DNA from: Natronosalvus amylolyticus
GTDB taxonomy: Archaea; Halobacteriota; Halobacteria; Halobacteriales; Natrialbaceae
DNA length: 64,000 nucleotides
Assembly (NCBI RefSeq): GCF_024298845.1
Contig: NZ_CP101156.1
Coordinates: forward strand, 496,001 to 560,000
Direction of reading: 5' to 3'
Shown: piece by piece, positions 261-32,290 of the stretch
Numbering within the stretch: the first letter of the stretch is position 1
How the letters are laid out: every line of letters begins with the position of its first letter
Notes under the pieces: generated by a model
Databases searched by the model: none
The model's input: only the letters and a program-made list of their open reading frames with translations
What the model was told of the DNA's origin: nothing
Translations under genes and position numbers: made by a program

Positions 261-797
261 ATGGACACGAGGATTCGACCGTACGATCCCGATACTGATC
301 GTGATGCTCTCTGGGCACTCAAAACCGGCTTCGAGCGCGGACTCGGTACTGGAACGGGTGGCCACGAGAAAGCCAAACTGTACGACGCGAAGCTGAACGA
401 CGAGTACCGTGAGGGGTACCTGGAGTGGGTCGAACGCTGTCTGACCGAGGAACCCGGGGCGGTGACGGTCGCGGAACGCAACACCGTCGATGGCGAGGAC
501 CTCCCGACGTCTGGGCAGGGGACTCAGTTAGTCGGCTACGTGTTCGTCTTGCCAGAATCTCTGGCGTACATCTGGGACAGTGCCGTGTTGAACGAAATTT
601 ACGTCACCCCGAACTACCGAGGGACCGGCGTTTCCGACGGACTCATGAGCGCCGCTATCGAGGTGGCAGAGGGGCAAGACCTCCCGCTCGAGCGACTGGT
701 CCTCGACGTGGACCGGGAAAACGACCGGGCGCAGGCATTTTACGAGCGCCACGGATTCGATCACTGGGGCGAGATGGTTTCACGGTCACTCGAGTAA
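261..797 (+). CDS. GNAT family N-acetyltransferase
   Basis: A 178-residue GNAT-fold acyl-CoA transferase. The acetyl-CoA pyrophosphate-binding segment is visible as NYRGTGVSDGLM (about residues 115-126), after a beta-strand ending NEIYV, and the C-terminal NDRAQAFYERHGF matches the conserved last helix and strand. I chose ATG 261 because the ten codons from 231 look unlike a domain start. The acceptor substrate (small molecule or protein amine) cannot be told from sequence. The 3' end overlaps the convergent membrane-protein gene by 12 bases. Confidence 0.85.
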   Translation: MDTRIRPYDPDTDRDALWALKTGFERGLGTGTGGHEKAKLYDAKLNDEYREGYLEWVERCLTEEPGAVTVAERNTVDGEDLPTSGQGTQLVGYVFVLPESLAYIWDSAVLNEIYVTPNYRGTGVSDGLMSAAIEVAEGQDLPLERLVLDVDRENDRAQAFYERHGFDHWGEMVSRSLE

Positions 798-1457
798 CCA
801 GGCGAGGGCCCCACCAATCCCGCCAAAGAGCAAGGGATAGACCAGACCGGCACGAACGATCGCTTCGGTCGGGTCGGGACGAACGATGGCATCGCCAACG
901 GTTACGGTCCCAACGGTCATTGCCGTTATCGTCACGACGAGGTAGCCGACCGTCACGACACCGCCAGTCGCGATGTGGTCACCGAGGGACGCGCCATCGA
1001 CGCGGCGGGCTTCGCGTCGAGCAACGACGAAGCCGGCGACAGCGATGACCAGCGGCGGGACGATCAGTAACAGCGGCTCCCAGTCGGTGCCATCGAGGAC
1101 GACGTTCTGATTGGCCTGGGCGAGTCGGAAGACCCCTTCCTGGGGAAAGGAAGTCGGGACGGTGTGGGCGTTGAAGTACGTCCAGATGACGAGTTCGGTG
1201 GTCAGGCTGTCACCAGTCACGGACTCGATGATTTCGGTCCGGAGGTCATCGCGAATCGTCGATCTGGCCGTTACAAATGTGATGAAGACGCCGAGTATCC
1301 AGGCGAGCCCACCGGCTAGCGTGGCTTCGAGCAATCCCTGATACCGATTCTCGGCTGACTCGCCGTAGTTTGATGCGTTCGAATCTGGCACGGGTTGGTT
1401 GCCACCGTTCCTTCGTGAATCGCCCTTCTTCCCGGATTCGCCGTCTCGAGCACCCAT
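786..1457 (-). CDS. Haloarchaeal four-helix membrane protein, function unknown
   Basis: A 223-residue protein. About 40 polar residues rich in Gly, Asn and Ser are followed by a first membrane helix (about 41-63), a roughly 60-residue loop, and three further hydrophobic segments (about 126-146, 160-185, 199-223), the last reaching the C-terminus. The long loop between helices 1 and 2 contains the pattern typical of a folded extracytoplasmic insert. I recognise no catalytic motif and give no function. It is convergent with the GNAT gene. Confidence 0.6.
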   Translation of the reverse strand: MGARDGESGKKGDSRRNGGNQPVPDSNASNYGESAENRYQGLLEATLAGGLAWILGVFITFVTARSTIRDDLRTEIIESVTGDSLTTELVIWTYFNAHTVPTSFPQEGVFRLAQANQNVVLDGTDWEPLLLIVPPLVIAVAGFVVARREARRVDGASLGDHIATGGVVTVGYLVVTITAMTVGTVTVGDAIVRPDPTEAIVRAGLVYPLLFGGIGGALAWLLE

Positions 1458-1577
1458 CCCCAGCGGGTACTCCGTGTGCAGTCAAAACCGTTTGGTCCCG
1501 TCGGGAGAACGGGTGTGTCAACACGGCTCGAGGGAAAACTGTTGAAAGCGTACGCAGTATGGGATGTACGGTCTCCC

Positions 1578-2684
1578 TCAATCAGCGTGATGGACCGCTT
1601 CGGGTTCGGGGTTGAGACGAACTGCTCGACCGGTTTCACTCGAGCGATAGATGGCGTCGATCACGCGCTGGACGGTCAGGGCCTCTTCGACCGTATTCGT
1701 GGCTGGCTGTTCGCCAGCGACGATCGTTTCGAGGAACCGCTGGTCTTGCTCGGCGTGCCCGGTGACCGAAGAATCACCGGTCAGTTCGCTGTCAGCGTAG
1801 TGGTCAGTCCCTGCAGTGCTGGCTTCCAGAATCTTCAGGTCAGTGTCGCCGATTTCGAAGTGTGCCCCGGCTTCCGTACCGCGAACGCGGAAGTCCATAC
1901 TCGAATCGCGGTTGGTGGCCCAGCCTGCCTCGAGGGAGATGGTTTGTCCGTTCGCACAGCGAATAAAGGCGGTTACGGCGTCGTCGACCTCGTACGTTTC
2001 GGCCTCGGCATCCCAGTTTGCACCGAAGCCGTCCGGGTCAGCGTACTCCGTTTTCGTGCCGAACGTGGTTCGAGCGACGCCGCTGACCTCGACGACTTCG
2101 GGGAAATCGAGCGTATAGAGGGCGAGGTCGATAGCGTGGACGCCGATATCGAGCAACGCACCGCCGCCGGCCAGTTGCGAGTCGGTGAACCAGGAACCCG
2201 GGCCGGGGACCCCGCGGCGTCGGACGTACTCGGCTTCGACGTGCGTCAACTCGCCGAAACGACCCCGTCGTTTGTACTCGTCGAACATCGCCGTCGAACC
2301 CGCGTGCCGGTTGTGGAAGCCAACCATGCAGATGCCGTCGGATTCCGCCGCGGCCGCTGCGATTCGCTCAGCGCTCTCGAGCGTGTGTGCCAGGGGTTTT
2401 TCGACCAGTACGTTACAGCCAGCATTGAGCGCGGCAACCGAAATCGGTTCGTGGAACTTGTTCGGCGTGGTGACCACGACAGTATCGACGTCGTCGTCGG
2501 CGATCAGTCCCTCGTGGGACTCGTAGGTGGTCGCGTCGAACTCCGCACCGAACGCCTCGCGCTGTTCGGCGACGAGGTCGGCACCGGCAACGATAGTGGC
2601 ACCTGCCGCACGCATATTCGAGGCGTGGAGATGGCCCATGCCGCCGAGGCCAACGATTCCGACGCCGATGTCGGCGAGATTCAT
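1578..2684 (-). CDS. Gfo/Idh/MocA family oxidoreductase (ThuB-like)
   Basis: A 368-residue NAD(P)-dependent sugar or inositol dehydrogenase family member. The Rossmann nucleotide site is GIVGLGGMGHLH (about residues 8-19), and the family signature EKPLAHTLESA (about 95-105) carries the conserved EKP lysine. The C-terminal half is the typical alpha/beta substrate domain with GGALLDIGVHAIDLALY. Length is normal for the family. It is divergent from the ThuA-like gene across a 269-base AT-rich spacer. ThuA and ThuB (a Gfo/Idh enzyme) act together on 3-keto sugars in rhizobia; a similar role here is inference. Confidence 0.88.
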   Translation of the reverse strand: MNLADIGVGIVGLGGMGHLHASNMRAAGATIVAGADLVAEQREAFGAEFDATTYESHEGLIADDDVDTVVVTTPNKFHEPISVAALNAGCNVLVEKPLAHTLESAERIAAAAAESDGICMVGFHNRHAGSTAMFDEYKRRGRFGELTHVEAEYVRRRGVPGPGSWFTDSQLAGGGALLDIGVHAIDLALYTLDFPEVVEVSGVARTTFGTKTEYADPDGFGANWDAEAETYEVDDAVTAFIRCANGQTISLEAGWATNRDSSMDFRVRGTEAGAHFEIGDTDLKILEASTAGTDHYADSELTGDSSVTGHAEQDQRFLETIVAGEQPATNTVEEALTVQRVIDAIYRSSETGRAVRLNPEPEAVHHAD

Positions 2685-10376: not shown

Positions 10377-11558
10377 ATGGTAGAGACGCTTTTGATTATC
10401 GGCGTAATCGCATCGATATTTGTAGGATTCAATATCGGTGGGTCGTCGACCGGAATCACCTGGGGCCCTTCGGTTGGGGCTGGAATCGTCAAGAAAACGA
10501 CTGCAGCGGCGGTAATGACGGTCTTCGTTTTCCTGGGTGGGATAACGGTTGGACAAAACGTGATGGATACCCTCAGCGGCGAAATTATTACAACCGAACT
10601 CACGTTGTCTGCGGGTGTGGCCGTACTCTTCTTTATCGGCCTCGGCATTCTTGTCGCGAACGTTTTCGGCGTTCCGGTTCCCACATCGATGACGACCGTC
10701 GGTGCCATCGCCGGGCTTGGACTTGCCACGGGAACGCTAAATTACGAAACGATTGCGGAAATCGTTATCTGGTGGATCGTTACACCGGTTATCGGATTCT
10801 GGGTCGGAGGGGTTATCGGACGCTACATTTATCCGTGGGTCAATCGTCGAGTGGACATCAAAAAGTCCGATGGGCCACTCCTGACACTAAACCGAGATGG
10901 AGGGGTTCCGTCACCGAAATTAGGCCCAAACACGACTGTACAGGAACTTGGCACCACAGTGGTTGTCCTCCTTATCGGCTGTTATATGGCTTTCAGTGCC
11001 GGCGCGAGCAACGTTCCAAACGCCGCTGCGCCACTGGTTGGCCAAGCCGGCCTCGAGGTGACCGATGCCGTAATTCTCGCCACCGTCGCCATCGGACTCG
11101 GCGGATTTACCATCGCTCGCCGAACGATGGACTCTGTGGGTGGAGAACTGAGTGACATCCCGCTCCTGGCAGCGCTTTTCGTCATGGTGACCGCATCGAC
11201 GATCACGACGATTCTGTCCTGGATGGGAATCCCGATCAGTCTCGTGATGGGGACCGTGATGACGATCGTGGGAATTGGGTGGGGGCGAGCAACTCGGCCG
11301 ATAACCGTTCGCGAAGCAGTTACTCGCGATAGCGATATTACCGACAAACGGATCGAACTGGGTGCAATCGTCACCGAGGAAGAAGAGGATGAAGACGCAC
11401 CGGCTATCGGGGAACCGGAAACTGAAGCGGTCCTTCACGGGAGCGATCTCTTCAATCCTCGTGCGATAATTAAGTACGTCTCGATGTGGGTTATCGGGCC
11501 TTCGATGTCCACGCTTTTGGCATACGGCTTCTTCACCGTCTTGCCTGGTGTTGCCTGA
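10377..11558 (+). CDS. Inorganic phosphate transporter, PiT family
   Basis: 393 residues from ATG 10377. The two inverted PiT half-signatures are visible: GFNIGGSSTGITWGPSVGAG near residue 18 (normally GANDVANA-type) and SAGASNVPNAAAPLVGQAG near residue 203. Around ten membrane segments flank an acidic cytoplasmic loop rich in E/D near the C-terminal third (TEEEEDEDAP). It would import phosphate driven by a cation gradient. No DUF47 (PhoU-like) partner, often linked to PiT, is adjacent. It sits next to the tRNA-Ser att-like repeat. Confidence 0.88.
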   Translation: MVETLLIIGVIASIFVGFNIGGSSTGITWGPSVGAGIVKKTTAAAVMTVFVFLGGITVGQNVMDTLSGEIITTELTLSAGVAVLFFIGLGILVANVFGVPVPTSMTTVGAIAGLGLATGTLNYETIAEIVIWWIVTPVIGFWVGGVIGRYIYPWVNRRVDIKKSDGPLLTLNRDGGVPSPKLGPNTTVQELGTTVVVLLIGCYMAFSAGASNVPNAAAPLVGQAGLEVTDAVILATVAIGLGGFTIARRTMDSVGGELSDIPLLAALFVMVTASTITTILSWMGIPISLVMGTVMTIVGIGWGRATRPITVREAVTRDSDITDKRIELGAIVTEEEEDEDAPAIGEPETEAVLHGSDLFNPRAIIKYVSMWVIGPSMSTLLAYGFFTVLPGVA

Positions 11559-25310: not shown

Positions 25311-27089
25311 TCACTCTCGAGAGTCGACGACGGCCGCGTCGAGGTGTGACTGTAACGCCGGATGAAGCACCCCGTTCGAACCGAGGAGTTCTTTTCGCGT
25401 GTCCATCTCGAGGTCGAACTCGAACGGGTTGCCGCGAGCATCGGTGATACGTGCGCCGGCCGCACGAGCGATGACGAGGCCGGCGGCGACGTCCCACGGG
25501 TAGGTGTCGAACTCCCAGACGGCATCGGCGCTACCGCGGGCGAGATAACAGAGATTCAACGCCGCGGCACCCAGTCGGCGGACGCCTCGAGTTTCCTGAT
25601 AGAAGTTCGCCAGAAACGAGCCGTCCGGGTCGTAACCGGACAGAAGCATGCTCTCCGGGAGGCGGTTCCGATCGGTCGTTGCAATCTGCCTGCCGTTTTG
25701 CCAGGCGGTTCCACCTTCGACGGCAGCGAATAACTCGTCTGTTTCTGGGACGTAAACCACTCCGAGGGTGGGTGTTCCTGAAACGACCAGTCCGATCGAG
25801 ATGGCGTAATTCGGATTTCCGTGTGCAAAGTTTCCGGTCCCATCCAGTGGGTCGATGACCCAGGTGTATGGAGTTCCGGACGCTCGATGGCCGCTTTCTT
25901 CCGAAAAGAGGCTGTGGTCGGGGAACTCGGCCCTAATAGCCGTCGTGATGATCCTATCTGCCTGCCGGTCGGCTTCCGTGATGATGTTCGCTTTGTCCGT
26001 TTTGAAGCCGACCGATTCCACCTGTCCGTGGAGTTCGCGTAAGGGTTCGCCAGCGCTGTGAGCCGCCTCGATGGCTATCTCGAGGGCATCGTCGATGGCA
26101 AAATCGGTCGGAAACGATGTTCGATCGAGCCCTGCCGTCATAGCGTCGACGTTGGGAACACCGCTACGGCTCGTTCCGTTCGGCTGAGCACGACTCGGTC
26201 GAATCCGGGGGACGTCAGCACGTAAGGGCCGCCCTTCGTCCGACCGAACGTCCCAGCCGAGTTTCTTCGTGATTGCCGTGAAGAAATGGTCGTCGTAACT
26301 GGTTCGGACGACGTAAGCCGGCGTTTCAGCTCCTGTGATCAGTACTTCTTCGTCTTCATTGACGGCCGTGTGAACGCGACCGCCGTCGACTTGCAACGTG
26401 GCGGGACCTTCCGTGTATATCCGGAGTTCCGTCGACGGTGCCATAACGACCGGCCGCACACCGAGTTGATGGGTGTGCAGTGGAACCAGCTGAATCGAGT
26501 GGTTGTTAACCGGATAGTGAATCGGCCCGTTGGCCGAGAGTGAAATTCCGGTCGACCCGGTGGGCGTCGAAACGGCCAGTCCGGTCCCTTCGAACTCCCC
26601 GACGTACTCGTCGTTGGCGAACACGTCGAGACGGGTTATCTTCCGGTCGATCGGGTTCTCCGGCGGCGCGTGCTCGAGCATGATCTCGTTGATCCCCGTC
26701 GCCTCGAGCCCGTCGGTTTCGACGCGAACTTGCTGGCGATTGTCGACAGCTGCACGGCCACGAAGGGCTTCTTCGAGTGCTGCCTCGAGGTCTTCCGGTT
26801 CGACGCGAGCCAGAAACGAGAGCGTGCCCGTATTGATGCCCAGAACTGGAACCCCGCGCGGAGCGAACGTCTTGATGCCCTCGAAAAACGTCCCGTCACC
26901 ACCGATTGTCAGGCCGAGCGTTGCCGTCCCCTCCTCGTAGACGTGTCCAATATCCGTACCGACGTCGACTGCTGACACCGAGAGATCGTATGCGGATGCA
27001 ATGGTCTCCAGTCGGTCGAGCACGTCCTCGCTGCCTGGGCTGACGACGGCGATCAGTTCCTCTGTCGTCGCCAATCTTCGGCCGTGCAT
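25311..27089 (-). CDS. Fused NAD kinase and inositol-monophosphatase-type phosphatase
   Basis: 592 residues from ATG 27089. The N-terminal NAD kinase (about 1-270) shows GGDGTFFEGI, the NEIML strand and STPTGSTGISLSANGP. A 30-50 residue linker is followed by a C-terminal IMPase domain with FSEESGHR, WVIDPLDGTGNF and YPWDVAAGLVIARAAGA. NADK makes NADP; the IMPase domain could remove its phosphate, as in the Methanocaldococcus MJ0917 fusion. There the order is phosphatase then kinase, so this is reversed. TATA-like ATTTATA at 27118-27124 (minus strand) supports the start. Confidence 0.9.
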   Translation of the reverse strand: MHGRRLATTEELIAVVSPGSEDVLDRLETIASAYDLSVSAVDVGTDIGHVYEEGTATLGLTIGGDGTFFEGIKTFAPRGVPVLGINTGTLSFLARVEPEDLEAALEEALRGRAAVDNRQQVRVETDGLEATGINEIMLEHAPPENPIDRKITRLDVFANDEYVGEFEGTGLAVSTPTGSTGISLSANGPIHYPVNNHSIQLVPLHTHQLGVRPVVMAPSTELRIYTEGPATLQVDGGRVHTAVNEDEEVLITGAETPAYVVRTSYDDHFFTAITKKLGWDVRSDEGRPLRADVPRIRPSRAQPNGTSRSGVPNVDAMTAGLDRTSFPTDFAIDDALEIAIEAAHSAGEPLRELHGQVESVGFKTDKANIITEADRQADRIITTAIRAEFPDHSLFSEESGHRASGTPYTWVIDPLDGTGNFAHGNPNYAISIGLVVSGTPTLGVVYVPETDELFAAVEGGTAWQNGRQIATTDRNRLPESMLLSGYDPDGSFLANFYQETRGVRRLGAAALNLCYLARGSADAVWEFDTYPWDVAAGLVIARAAGARITDARGNPFEFDLEMDTRKELLGSNGVLHPALQSHLDAAVVDSRE

Positions 27090-27117
27090 TTGTGTCGAAC
27101 TATCTTCGGGCTCACCG

Positions 27118-27124
27118 TATAAAT
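27118..27124 (-). promoter_or_regulatory. TATA box of the NAD kinase fusion gene
   Basis: On the minus strand the word is ATTTATA, centred about 32 bases from the start codon at 27089, giving a leader of at most a few bases. Confidence 0.6.
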
Positions 27125-27165
27125 CCACCTCGACACGCCGACACCTGCCTGCCGACTCCAAACCC

Positions 27166-29249: not shown

Positions 29250-29669
29250 ATGGTATCACGTGTCCTGGTCCCAGTCGACGGTTCCGAGATGGGAGAACAC
29301 GCCCTCGAGTACGCACTCGAGGTATTCCCGGACGGCGACATCACTGTCCTGCACGTCGTTGGTGGGCCGTCACCGATGTGGGGTGAAGCAGCGGGGCTCG
29401 CATTGGCAGACGATATTCAAGAGAAAGCAAACGAACTCGCAGCGTCAGCGTTTGAACGTGCTGAGGAAATCGCCGCTGAAAACGATCAGGAGATTTCGAC
29501 CACCGTCCAACTCGGACACCCAGCACGGGTGATTGTGAATCGAGCCGAAGACTACGATACCGTCGTTATCGGCGCTCACGGTGGCACGTTAGCTGATCGA
29601 CTCATCGTTGGAAACGTCGCAGAAACGGTTTTCCGTCGCTCGCCCGTGCCGGTTATCGTCGTTCGGTAA
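29250..29669 (+). CDS. Universal stress protein, UspA family
   Basis: 139 residues. It has the standard N-terminal MVSRVLVPVDGSEMGEHALEYA and the full ATP-loop signature in IGAHGGTLADRLIVGNVAETVFRRSPVPVIVV (G-2X-G-9X-G then N). Unlike the 16225 copy this should bind ATP. It is monocistronic, separated by 157 bases from the regulator upstream. Confidence 0.92.
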   Translation: MVSRVLVPVDGSEMGEHALEYALEVFPDGDITVLHVVGGPSPMWGEAAGLALADDIQEKANELAASAFERAEEIAAENDQEISTTVQLGHPARVIVNRAEDYDTVVIGAHGGTLADRLIVGNVAETVFRRSPVPVIVVR

Positions 29670-29681
29670 GAGGAGTGATTG

Positions 29682-30530
29682 TCACTTTTCTTTAGTATCT
29701 CTGTCGTCTTTAGAACCTTCGTTATCCGTGTCTTCGCCCCCATCGTCTTCGTCGTCCGTCTGCTCGACCGACTCTTCGATCAGTTCGGCAACTTGGTCCT
29801 CTCGAGGGCGTCGTTCGACCCGTTCTTCGACTGATTCGACTTGTTCCTGGACCGCACTCACCTGTTTCTCGACTGTCTCACCAACCGTTTCTTCGACGGT
29901 TTCGCTGACCGTTTCCTCGACGGTTTCACTAACCGTTTCCTCGACACGCGGTCCAATCTCTTTTTCGACGGTTTCTTCGACCTTCTCACCGACTGTCTTC
30001 TCCACGGTTTCGCCGACGGTCTTTTCGACCGTCTCTCCAACCTTTTCGTCGACCGTTTCCTCGACCTTCTCACCGACTGTCTTTTCCACGGTTTCACCGA
30101 CCGTTTTCTCAACCGTCTCCTCCACGGTTTCGCCAACCGTTTTCTCTACGGTTTCACCAACCGTCTTCTCCATGGTCTCATCAACCGTCTTCTCCATGGC
30201 TTCACCGACGGTCTTTTCGACGGTTTCTCCAACCCTCTCATCGACCGTCTTCTCCACGGTTTCACCGACTGTTTTCTCGACGCTCTCACCAACCTTTTCA
30301 TCGACTGTCTTTTCGACCGATTCGCCGACAGTTTCTTCGACCACTCGAGTCATCCACTCGGGATCGAATCGGGCCATCTTCCAGAGCACGTGAACCAGAT
30401 ACGCGGAGAACACACCAATCCCGAACGCGACACCGATCTGGGCATCGAAACCGGCGATGAGCGCGATAGCAGCAAAAATCAAGATACCGTAGGCGATATC
30501 CACGATGGCATCGACGTGTGTGGCTCTCAT
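29682..30530 (-). CDS. Membrane-anchored protein with 41 consecutive four-residue repeats
   Basis: 282 residues. Two membrane helices (about 9-27, 31-50) precede an unbroken run of four-residue units from about 61 to 224, each of the form x-x-T/S/K-V, such as GETV and EKTV. V, M or I stands at every fourth position for 41 units. An acidic tail (DDEDDGGEDTDNE) follows. Units alternate GETV/EKTV, so the DNA has 24-bp periodicity, but with many synonymous differences. The repeat would make an extended fibre or helix outside or inside the membrane. No family was recognised. Confidence 0.75.
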   Translation of the reverse strand: MRATHVDAIVDIAYGILIFAAIALIAGFDAQIGVAFGIGVFSAYLVHVLWKMARFDPEWMTRVVEETVGESVEKTVDEKVGESVEKTVGETVEKTVDERVGETVEKTVGEAMEKTVDETMEKTVGETVEKTVGETVEETVEKTVGETVEKTVGEKVEETVDEKVGETVEKTVGETVEKTVGEKVEETVEKEIGPRVEETVSETVEETVSETVEETVGETVEKQVSAVQEQVESVEERVERRPREDQVAELIEESVEQTDDEDDGGEDTDNEGSKDDRDTKEK

Positions 30531-30784: not shown

Positions 30785-32290
30785 ATGCTGCGCAAGGACC
30801 TGCTTCGGGTTTCACGAGCCGGTGGCGGTTACCAGCCACAGTTTGCCGGTCGGGAACACCGACCGCTCGCTGCTCGCGTTATCGGGACGTTTCAGGGCCA
30901 TCTGGGTGAAACCCGAGGCGACCTCGAGGCCGCACTGGCTGATCTCGAGGCGGAGGCAGCCGATTTCAAACTCGTTCGCGGGTTCGCCGCCTTGCTCGAG
31001 CGCGAAGCGTCGTTCGAGACCGACGCTCCCGTCGATCCTGAACGGGTTCGCACCGTCGTGTTCGAGGCGGCGGAAACGATCGGCGTCGTCACCGAAGGCG
31101 AGCGACGCGAAGCGCTCGAATCAGCCGGAGACAGCCTCGATATGGCATCCGAGGTGGTCGATTCGAGCCTGTTCGCCGACCTCGAACACCGACAGGTCCT
31201 TTCCGATATCGACGTGCCCTGGACGCCCGACGAACTGCTCGCCCAGTACAACCTGTCGCTGGCACAGACGGCCCTGTTCGACGCCACGAGCGTCCGGATT
31301 CGCTCGTCGAACCCGAAAGCGCTTATCTCAGCGACCAAACGGCTCCGACTCCTGTACGAAATCGAGCGGACGGACGAGGGTCGTGTCGTCGTCGTAACGG
31401 GACCAACCGCGCTCTTTCAGGCTACTCGTCGGTATGGAACCCGTTTTGCCCGACTCCTTCGAACCGTCGTGGGGGCTCCGGAGTGGTCACTCGAGGCAGC
31501 AATTGACGATCGCGGGACTGAACGAGTCCTTCGACTCTCGCAGGCGGATCCACTTCGAGCCCCTGACGCGGAACCTGTAACCGACGTGACGTACGATAGC
31601 GACGTCGAAGCGGACTTCGCGGCCCGGTTCGAGGCACTGGATCTCGACTGGGGCCTGCAACGGGAGCCGGAGCCGCTGGCAACCGGTACGCGGGTGATGA
31701 TCCCCGATTTTGCCTTCGACTACCGACACGCCGACTTTCGGGTCTACTTCGAGATCATGGGGTTCTGGACGCCCGAGTACGTCGAAAAGAAACTCGACCA
31801 GCTCGAGCACCTCGAGGATGTCGAGATGGTCGTCGCCGTGGACGAATCGCTCGCTGCCGAGGCCGATATCGAGGCGCGCGACCACCGGGCAATCCCCTAC
31901 CGCGACCGCGTCCGTGTGAAAGACGTCGTCGATGTCCTTCGATCCTACGAACGCGAATTGATCGATGAAAGTGCTGCCACACTCCCGGATTGCCTGCGTC
32001 CGGAAGCCAACGTCTGCACCCTCGAAGCCATTGCCGCAGAACACGGCGTGAGTGAAGCGGCACTCGAGGCCGTGACCTTCCCCGAACACGAACGTCTCGG
32101 TCGAACGCTCGTTCGCCCTGCCGTCCTCGAGGCTCTCGAAGCCGACCTCGAAGAAGGGCTGACGCTCGAGACTGTCGAATCGCGGCTCGAAGTGCACGGA
32201 CTCGAGGAGACGAGTGCCGTCCTCTCGAAACTCGGTTACCGCATCGAGTGGGAGGGGCTGGGTGGGGGCGTACTACGACGGCCCACGTGA
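30785..32290 (+). CDS. DUF790 family protein (Bax1-like, XPB partner nuclease)
   Basis: 501 residues from ATG 30785 (MLRKDLLRVSRAGGGYQPQF), matching DUF790 throughout. Visible: LSLAQTALFDATSVRIRSSNPK and VMIPDFAFDYRHADFRVYFEIMGFWTPEYVEKKL, which carries the D, E and K of a PD-(D/E)xK-like nuclease core. In other archaea Bax1 is an XPG-like nuclease that binds XPB helicase and is encoded next to it; no helicase gene adjoins here. Predicted role is nucleotide excision repair. Confidence 0.85.
   Translation: MLRKDLLRVSRAGGGYQPQFAGREHRPLAARVIGTFQGHLGETRGDLEAALADLEAEAADFKLVRGFAALLEREASFETDAPVDPERVRTVVFEAAETIGVVTEGERREALESAGDSLDMASEVVDSSLFADLEHRQVLSDIDVPWTPDELLAQYNLSLAQTALFDATSVRIRSSNPKALISATKRLRLLYEIERTDEGRVVVVTGPTALFQATRRYGTRFARLLRTVVGAPEWSLEAAIDDRGTERVLRLSQADPLRAPDAEPVTDVTYDSDVEADFAARFEALDLDWGLQREPEPLATGTRVMIPDFAFDYRHADFRVYFEIMGFWTPEYVEKKLDQLEHLEDVEMVVAVDESLAAEADIEARDHRAIPYRDRVRVKDVVDVLRSYERELIDESAATLPDCLRPEANVCTLEAIAAEHGVSEAALEAVTFPEHERLGRTLVRPAVLEALEADLEEGLTLETVESRLEVHGLEETSAVLSKLGYRIEWEGLGGGVLRRPT

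Follow-up and report, generated by a model that had tools for sequence, protein, structure and literature searches.

What kind of protein carries a hydrophobic residue at exactly every fourth position over some 160 residues, and what such a protein does in the cell, are the questions raised by an open reading frame of the haloarchaeon Natronosalvus amylolyticus. This frame is located on the minus strand (29682-30530) of the window, i.e. the whole stretch of 64,000 nucleotides that was analysed; as originally predicted, it begins with ATG and encodes 282 amino acids. Our data place its product in a family of haloarchaeal proteins whose genes often adjoin those of PiT-type phosphate transporters. 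Both the family and the phosphate-transporter link are new with respect to the original prediction.

Sequence features of the tetrad protein

The gene codes for a predicted two-helix membrane hairpin, an arm of 42 tetrads, a short heptad-like segment and an acidic tail, all on the minus strand. Hydropathy, AlphaFold helix assignment and conservation point to transmembrane helices at about residues 8-27 (30450-30509) and 31-50 (30381-30440). The invariant residues D7, D11, Y14 and G15 are found within or just ahead of the first, and the second holds the invariant G39, Y44, H47 and W50. The description of the product as a membrane protein is thus appropriate for its N-terminus (about residues 8-50), to which the predicted membrane helices are confined. 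A near-invariant signature, W-K-M-A-R-F-D-P-[DE]-W-M (residues 50-60; 30351-30383), marks the membrane exit, and the presence of K51 and R54 after the second helix suggests, according to the positive-inside rule, a cytoplasmic location of the arm. The 41 complete tetrads (residues 61-224; 29859-30350), recognized by sequence, spectrum and shuffling, have the consensus [E/G][E/K]T-V. They are followed by the exit segment SAVQEQVESVEERVERRPRED (residues 225-246; 29793-29858), whose 3-4-3-4 spacing is canonical and heptad-like, and by a weakly conserved acidic tail of low pLDDT (residues 257-282; 29685-29762). The exit segment is kept in many relatives as VQAQVEAVDERVDRRPRED, and the post-tetrad segment with canonical 3-4-3-4 spacing contains SAVQEQVESVEERV.

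The regularity that had drawn attention to this frame, every fourth residue being Val, Met or Ile over 41 uninterrupted units, was confirmed: from residue 60 to residue 224, 42 unbroken positions are filled by 38 Val, 3 Met and 1 Ile, or 41 positions when counting starts at residue 64. Between residues 64 and 224 all 41 stripe positions were filled, and apart from them a single Ala was hydrophobic; when these residues were shuffled 10,000 times, no run exceeded 10. The hydrophobic power spectrum peaked at 4.00 residues and was nearly empty at 3.5, 3.6, 3.66 and 3.76 (power of 9.1 at 4.00 against 0.09 at 3.66). Rich in E, K, T, G and V, the arm has a net charge of about -31. Its units included 11 EKTV and 8 GETV, mixed with EETV, DEKV, GEKV and SETV, so that the alternation of GETV and EKTV reported previously is only partial, with part of the arm displaying an 8-residue G-E-T-V-E-K-T-V period.

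An ordinary heptad or hendecad coiled coil misread as tetrads could be invoked, as 4-3-4 spacing is present in the conserved exit segment and in inserted modules. However, neither a heptad nor a hendecad register fits runs of 41 to 53 consecutive spacings of 4, and spectral power was near zero at 3.5 and 3.66. Where coiled coils mix spacings of 3 and 4 with a period of about 3.33-3.9, the window protein has a period of 4.00 and almost nothing at 3.5-3.76. The misreading is contradicted by the sequence of this member and is almost certainly wrong, and the view that a strict tetrad is not a usual coiled coil was borne out at the level of sequence.

Distribution and spacing rules of two tetrad families

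A search with the N-terminal 76 residues of the window protein (the hairpin) retrieved homologues from 113 of 125 genomes at the family level and from 277 of 391 at the class level, all uncharacterised; about 70% of the sampled haloarchaeal genomes thus encode such a protein. Hosts included Natronosalvus, Natrinema, Natrialba, Halorubrum and Halobacterium salinarum. Copies in annotated records were either labelled 'hypothetical protein' or left unannotated. In agreement with the previous statement that no described protein matches, searches of Pfam and NCBIfam yielded no family describing the hairpin, and no description of the tetrad protein family was found in a literature search. Matches of the arm to GerPC, EcsC, DUF445 and ser_rich in these databases were rejected as low-complexity; that to GerPC was slightly above the cut-off and covered the repeats only.

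Outside Halobacteria, a whole-protein profile search returned no homologues, only other short-period repeats (PEPV, KHLV). One of these (L149 from genome G611, about 839-1450, plus strand), from another class of the phylum, carries about 29 unrelated KHLV/KHSV/KHLA tetrads that are basic rather than acidic; it is likely a young 12-bp repeat and offers a natural comparison for the acidic tetrads. Another (L151 from G547, 485-1340, plus strand) is a secreted-looking protein with PEPV/SEPV tetrads, which shares the period but is a proline-rich extended spacer. A metallo-beta-lactamase-like protein (L154 from G653, 854-2600, plus strand) has a long N-terminal repeat linker of the DKTTDKNVDK type.

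The longest unbroken tetrad run varied from 5 to 54 units among 102 extracted proteins; the long open frames of some homologues (up to 1117 aa) reflect upstream extensions and not long arms. Of 3430 successive hydrophobic spacings in 108 homologues, 3175 were of 4 residues and 216 of 3. The other 39 included 12 spacings of 8, i.e. one stripe position skipped. Spacings of 3 clustered in VEKQVDEVQAQV-type modules, which follow heptad/hendecad grammar. Because the register shifts almost solely by 3, as is the rule in helix packing, the arm is probably alpha-helical, and this mixture of 3 and 4 is the main sequence evidence for a helix. In two genomes (L127 in G087, L128 in G091), two paralogous tetrad genes in opposite orientation lie about 4.5 kb apart and apparently flank pitA genes; one paralogue has a long arm (221-261 aa) and the other a short one (114-121 aa).

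A second, diverged family was caught by profile search and is present in 17 of 194 sampled genomes. It has a different hairpin (IELLYG ... RVWEKMSIYER), remotely similar to that of family 1 (hhalign P 2.6e-5, 27% identity, probability 75%), and tetrads such as AEVEEQVGDEV, with 261 of 321 hydrophobic spacings being 4. The Thr, Gly and Lys of the family 1 filler are mostly replaced by Ala, Gln and Asp, with Glu present as well, so that the tetrads of family 2 are filled by strong helix formers. The hydrophobic residue at each fourth place is common to both families.

Selection and turnover of units

Silent codon variation, noted at the outset as abundant, is real: Val is encoded by GTC (23), GTT (9), GTG (6) and GTA (1) in the window gene, and Thr by ACC (12), ACG (11), ACA (5) and ACT (2). 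The dN/dS ratio of the repeats was about 0.01-0.19 in most close pairs of homologues, and in many pairs the value at stripe positions was close to zero. Some close pairs gave no ratio, their synonymous sites being too diverged, and one pair (L060/L104), with very few substitutions, was an exception. Comparison of the window protein with its closest relative at stripe positions gave a pS of 0.52 and a pN of 0.03.

These two proteins share 97% identity in their first 76 residues, yet the relative has 54 units and the window protein 42. Silent-site divergence was 0.75 for nominally aligned units against 0.17 for the hairpin, and such a higher value is expected for aligned units if units are gained, lost and shuffled. 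Judging from these sequences, unit number turns over while purifying selection keeps the tetrad rule, and selection and slippage both operate. The original choice of selection rather than recent slippage was therefore right about selection at the protein level, as the low dN/dS indicates, but silent variation does not exclude the turnover of units. Neutral slippage of a 12-bp repeat devoid of structural meaning would likewise account for the 42 and 54 units of close relatives. It is already contradicted by diverse codons, by low dN/dS and by conservation across the whole class and in a second family, and has next to no chance of being the explanation.

Structural models of the arm

AlphaFold models, computed for single chains only, contained no secondary structure other than helix. 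For the window protein, folded with an alignment, mean pLDDT was 57 and that of the arm 40-57, whereas a Halovenus homologue folded alone reached 59-87 in its arm. Searches of the PDB by sequence gave no convincing relative of the tetrad protein, and a PDB fold search returned only generic helical bundles with low TM-scores. The low confidence speaks against a confident helix, as does the abundance of the poor helix formers Gly, Thr and Val in family 1.

One alternative is an intrinsically disordered acidic spacer or brush, in which the valines arise incidentally from a repeat locked in its reading pattern. The low AlphaFold confidence, the strong acidity of the arm, a feature of many halophilic proteins, and a unit number varying from 5 to 54 are all compatible with it. 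But a brush needs no hydrophobic residue at every fourth position, synonymous sites change freely between the two closest relatives where Val of the stripe does not, and the stripe is kept in a diverged family with other filler. We consider disorder unlikely.

If the arm is helical, a stripe of period 4.0 at 3.60-3.63 residues per turn needs a right-handed superturn every 36-39 residues. Parallel arms would then be right-handed, with a pitch of about 40-50 Å for two or three strands and a tilt of 30-45 degrees; a computed dimer rope had a pitch of about 44-50 Å and a tilt of 32-35 degrees. For comparison, the computed superturn was about 81 residues for the 19/5 segment of YadA, and heptads at 3.63 gave a left-handed one of about 98. 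Carried by a helix, a right-wrapping stripe with one turn per about nine units, one of the two shapes initially envisaged, is the best structural reading.

The other, a non-helical fibre, was not supported: nearly every spacing that deviates from 4 is a 3, and family 2 tetrads are built of strong helix formers. Such a fibre could be an intertwined beta-helix of the kind formed by the octads of phage gp5/VgrG, or an octad screw of very short helices (HeliScrew4, PDB 9zem). Weak matches to Gp5_trimer_C (E 0.2) and to a VgrG-type chain (E 0.59), another weak one between HeliScrew4 and a family-2 arm (E 0.009) and the 8-residue period in part of the arm give it some basis; nothing was found on HeliScrew in a literature search. 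However, a beta-strand would put E/K two residues from Val, so that its faces would not be amphipathic, glycine has no regular spacing of 8 and the proline of HeliScrew4 is absent. Considering also the register shifts by 3, the helix formers of family 2 and the two all-helix AlphaFold models, such a fibre is highly improbable.

The 11-residue repeats of alpha-synuclein and LEA-3, which are rich in E, K, T, G and V, follow an 11/3 period and present one side to lipid. A membrane-lying or partner-binding amphipathic helix of this type, with KTKEGV-like logic, is therefore evoked by the similar composition of the tetrad protein and by its membrane anchor. An 11/3 period keeps one face, whereas power is found here at 4.00 and the 11-residue (3.67) periodicity is lacking in the window protein. 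As the stripe rotates once per about nine units, the arm cannot lie flat over 160 residues, which makes this reading very unlikely.

A helical arm thus remains the preferred reading. Coiled coils have an accessible upper limit of about 3.9 and an extreme known period of 3.8, with 4.0 regarded as inaccessible (PMC4786415), and in the dimeric coiled coils of CC+ a spacing of 4 occurs at most twice in succession (PMC9369452). From its sequence, the arm, if helical, would be either a coiled coil past the accepted limit or a set of helices whose stripes rotate among several neighbours. That it is a natural coiled coil of true period 4.0, or a helix relaxed toward four residues per turn, serving as a clamp or regulator of phosphate transporters across haloarchaea, is a tentative proposal that we regard as possible but doubtful.

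Gene neighbourhood

Neighbouring genes were scored by tblastn with PitA and Usp (universal stress protein) seeds. The flanks of 62 of 101 family-1 loci contained a PiT (PHO4) gene (29 of 58 where the flanks were wide), as did those of 10 of 15 family-2 loci, mostly on the same strand and within about 90 bp of the tetrad gene; as loci are related by descent, these counts are not independent. The chance of finding PHO4 within 3 kb, when a 4 Mb genome has about four such genes, is about 1% by a rough estimate of our own. The layouts nevertheless vary: same-strand tandems, the two genes being about -55 to 21 bp apart, were seen in Halobacterium, Halorientalis, Halosimplex, Halorussus, Halapricum and Halobiforma, and further layouts were convergent with Usp in between or divergent from a second pitA. 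Among annotated plasmids, 8 records contained a tetrad gene, and in every one a phosphate transporter was encoded no further than about 1 kb away; three of these records were examined in full. Mere co-occurrence is uninformative, PHO4 being found in 390 of 391 genomes; about 30% of sampled genomes have PitA with no tetrad homologue detected.

In the window, the tetrad gene is convergent with a Usp gene (29250-29669, plus strand), with 12 bp between the two frames. The PitA/PHO4 gene (10377-11558, plus strand; PF01384, 142 bits, and tblastn) lies 19 kb away, unlike in many Natrialbaceae relatives, where pitA adjoins the tetrad gene. This window copy of pitA has no tetrad gene or Usp directly beside it, and many relatives keep all three together; a rearrangement between 11.5 and 29 kb probably separated it from the other two. 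A Bax1-like nuclease gene (30785-32290, plus strand), which lies divergently beside the tetrad gene in several genomes of this genus, is regarded as context only and is not thought to be part of the system. A 616-aa frame of the window (25311-27161, minus strand) seems to encode an NAD kinase joined to an inositol-monophosphatase-like domain, a type of fusion known in archaea.

It is possible that the link to phosphate is one of neighbourhood only and that the helical arm acts as a general membrane tether or spacer, or works with Usp. A Usp gene adjoined 49 of 101 family-1 loci, and about 39% of family-1 loci, including Halorubrum and some others, had no PitA within flanks of 1.5-3 kb; Halorubrum copies adjoin Trm1, YihY and, in a few cases, an amino-acid permease. 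On the other hand, the PitA link is kept in three gene arrangements, in two diverged families and in all plasmid copies, and family-2 loci have PitA and no Usp in the stretches examined. A tether with no part in phosphate transport therefore appears rather unlikely. At three Halorubrum loci without adjacent PitA (L058, L064 and L103), an APC-like amino-acid permease gene follows the tetrad gene, with Usp in some.

A putative partner of PitA

The architecture, the conservation, the linkage to pitA and the purifying selection on the stripe are observed. On this basis, we give about an even chance to the proposal that the tetrad protein is an accessory partner of PiT-type phosphate transporters; adjacency of genes is no proof of physical contact. 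The two-helix hairpin would dock on PitA in the membrane and the arm would extend as a long alpha-helix into the high-salt cytoplasm, its valine stripe drifting right-handed, with each unit adding about 35-40 degrees. Adjacent subunits could pack their arms along these stripes into a strongly right-handed rope or a looser multi-helix cluster, which may cluster PitA or couple its activity to a cytoplasmic partner, Usp being the first candidate. Arm length would be free within 5-54 units provided that whole tetrads are added.

Each family of bacterial phosphate importers has its own accessory protein, which is PitR in the case of PitA (PMC13170248), and the tetrad protein might take in haloarchaea the role of accessory regulator that PitR has for bacterial PitA. 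PitR (PF01865) was found in 18 of 78 haloarchaeal genomes and was missing from 60, with no strict either/or pattern between it and the tetrad protein. The latter is thus a candidate for the missing PiT accessory protein of haloarchaea, most of which lack PitR in this sample.

Comparison with known systems

Short-period repeats with weak sequence similarity to the tetrads occur in the phage gp5/VgrG beta-helix and in HeliScrew4. These are built on V-x-G and on TP-capped octads, respectively, without the tetrad stripe and 3-residue shifts of the haloarchaeal families; the window protein has no VxG octad and scored 12.2 bits with the Gp5_trimer_C profile, against a cut-off of 30.9. With alpha-synuclein and LEA-3 the tetrad protein shares the richness in E, K, T, G and V, but it differs by its period of 4.0 and its hairpin anchor.

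Among phosphate-related proteins, PitR (PhoU_div, PF01865; PMC13170248) is likewise encoded beside pitA, a situation found at 62/101, 10/15 and 8/8 tetrad loci, with the window gene 19 kb off. PitR is a PhoU-like domain without membrane hairpin or tetrads, unlike the tetrad protein, and the PF01865 profile gave no match at E<=1 to the window protein or to a family-2 protein. A further likeness is offered by SCO1846, a small uncharacterised membrane protein that, like the tetrad protein, is encoded next to pitA in several genomes, frequently ones that lack PitR (PMC13170248). It is bacterial and about a third of PhoU size, so that a long arm is unlikely.

Close parallels to the arm are right-handed coiled coils with hendecad, pentadecad or 19/5 repeats, such as the YadA stalk with its local period of 3.8 (PMC4786415), which also have runs of core spacing 4 in a membrane-anchored stalk. 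Coiled coils of the YadA type insert a 3 after two to four spacings of 4, whereas tetrad proteins have 20-53 consecutive ones and a period of 4.00. With a published limit of about 3.9 and a period of 4.0 kept for 20-54 turns in two diverged families, this limit becomes directly testable, and the tetrad arm provides a simple, expressible domain for doing so.
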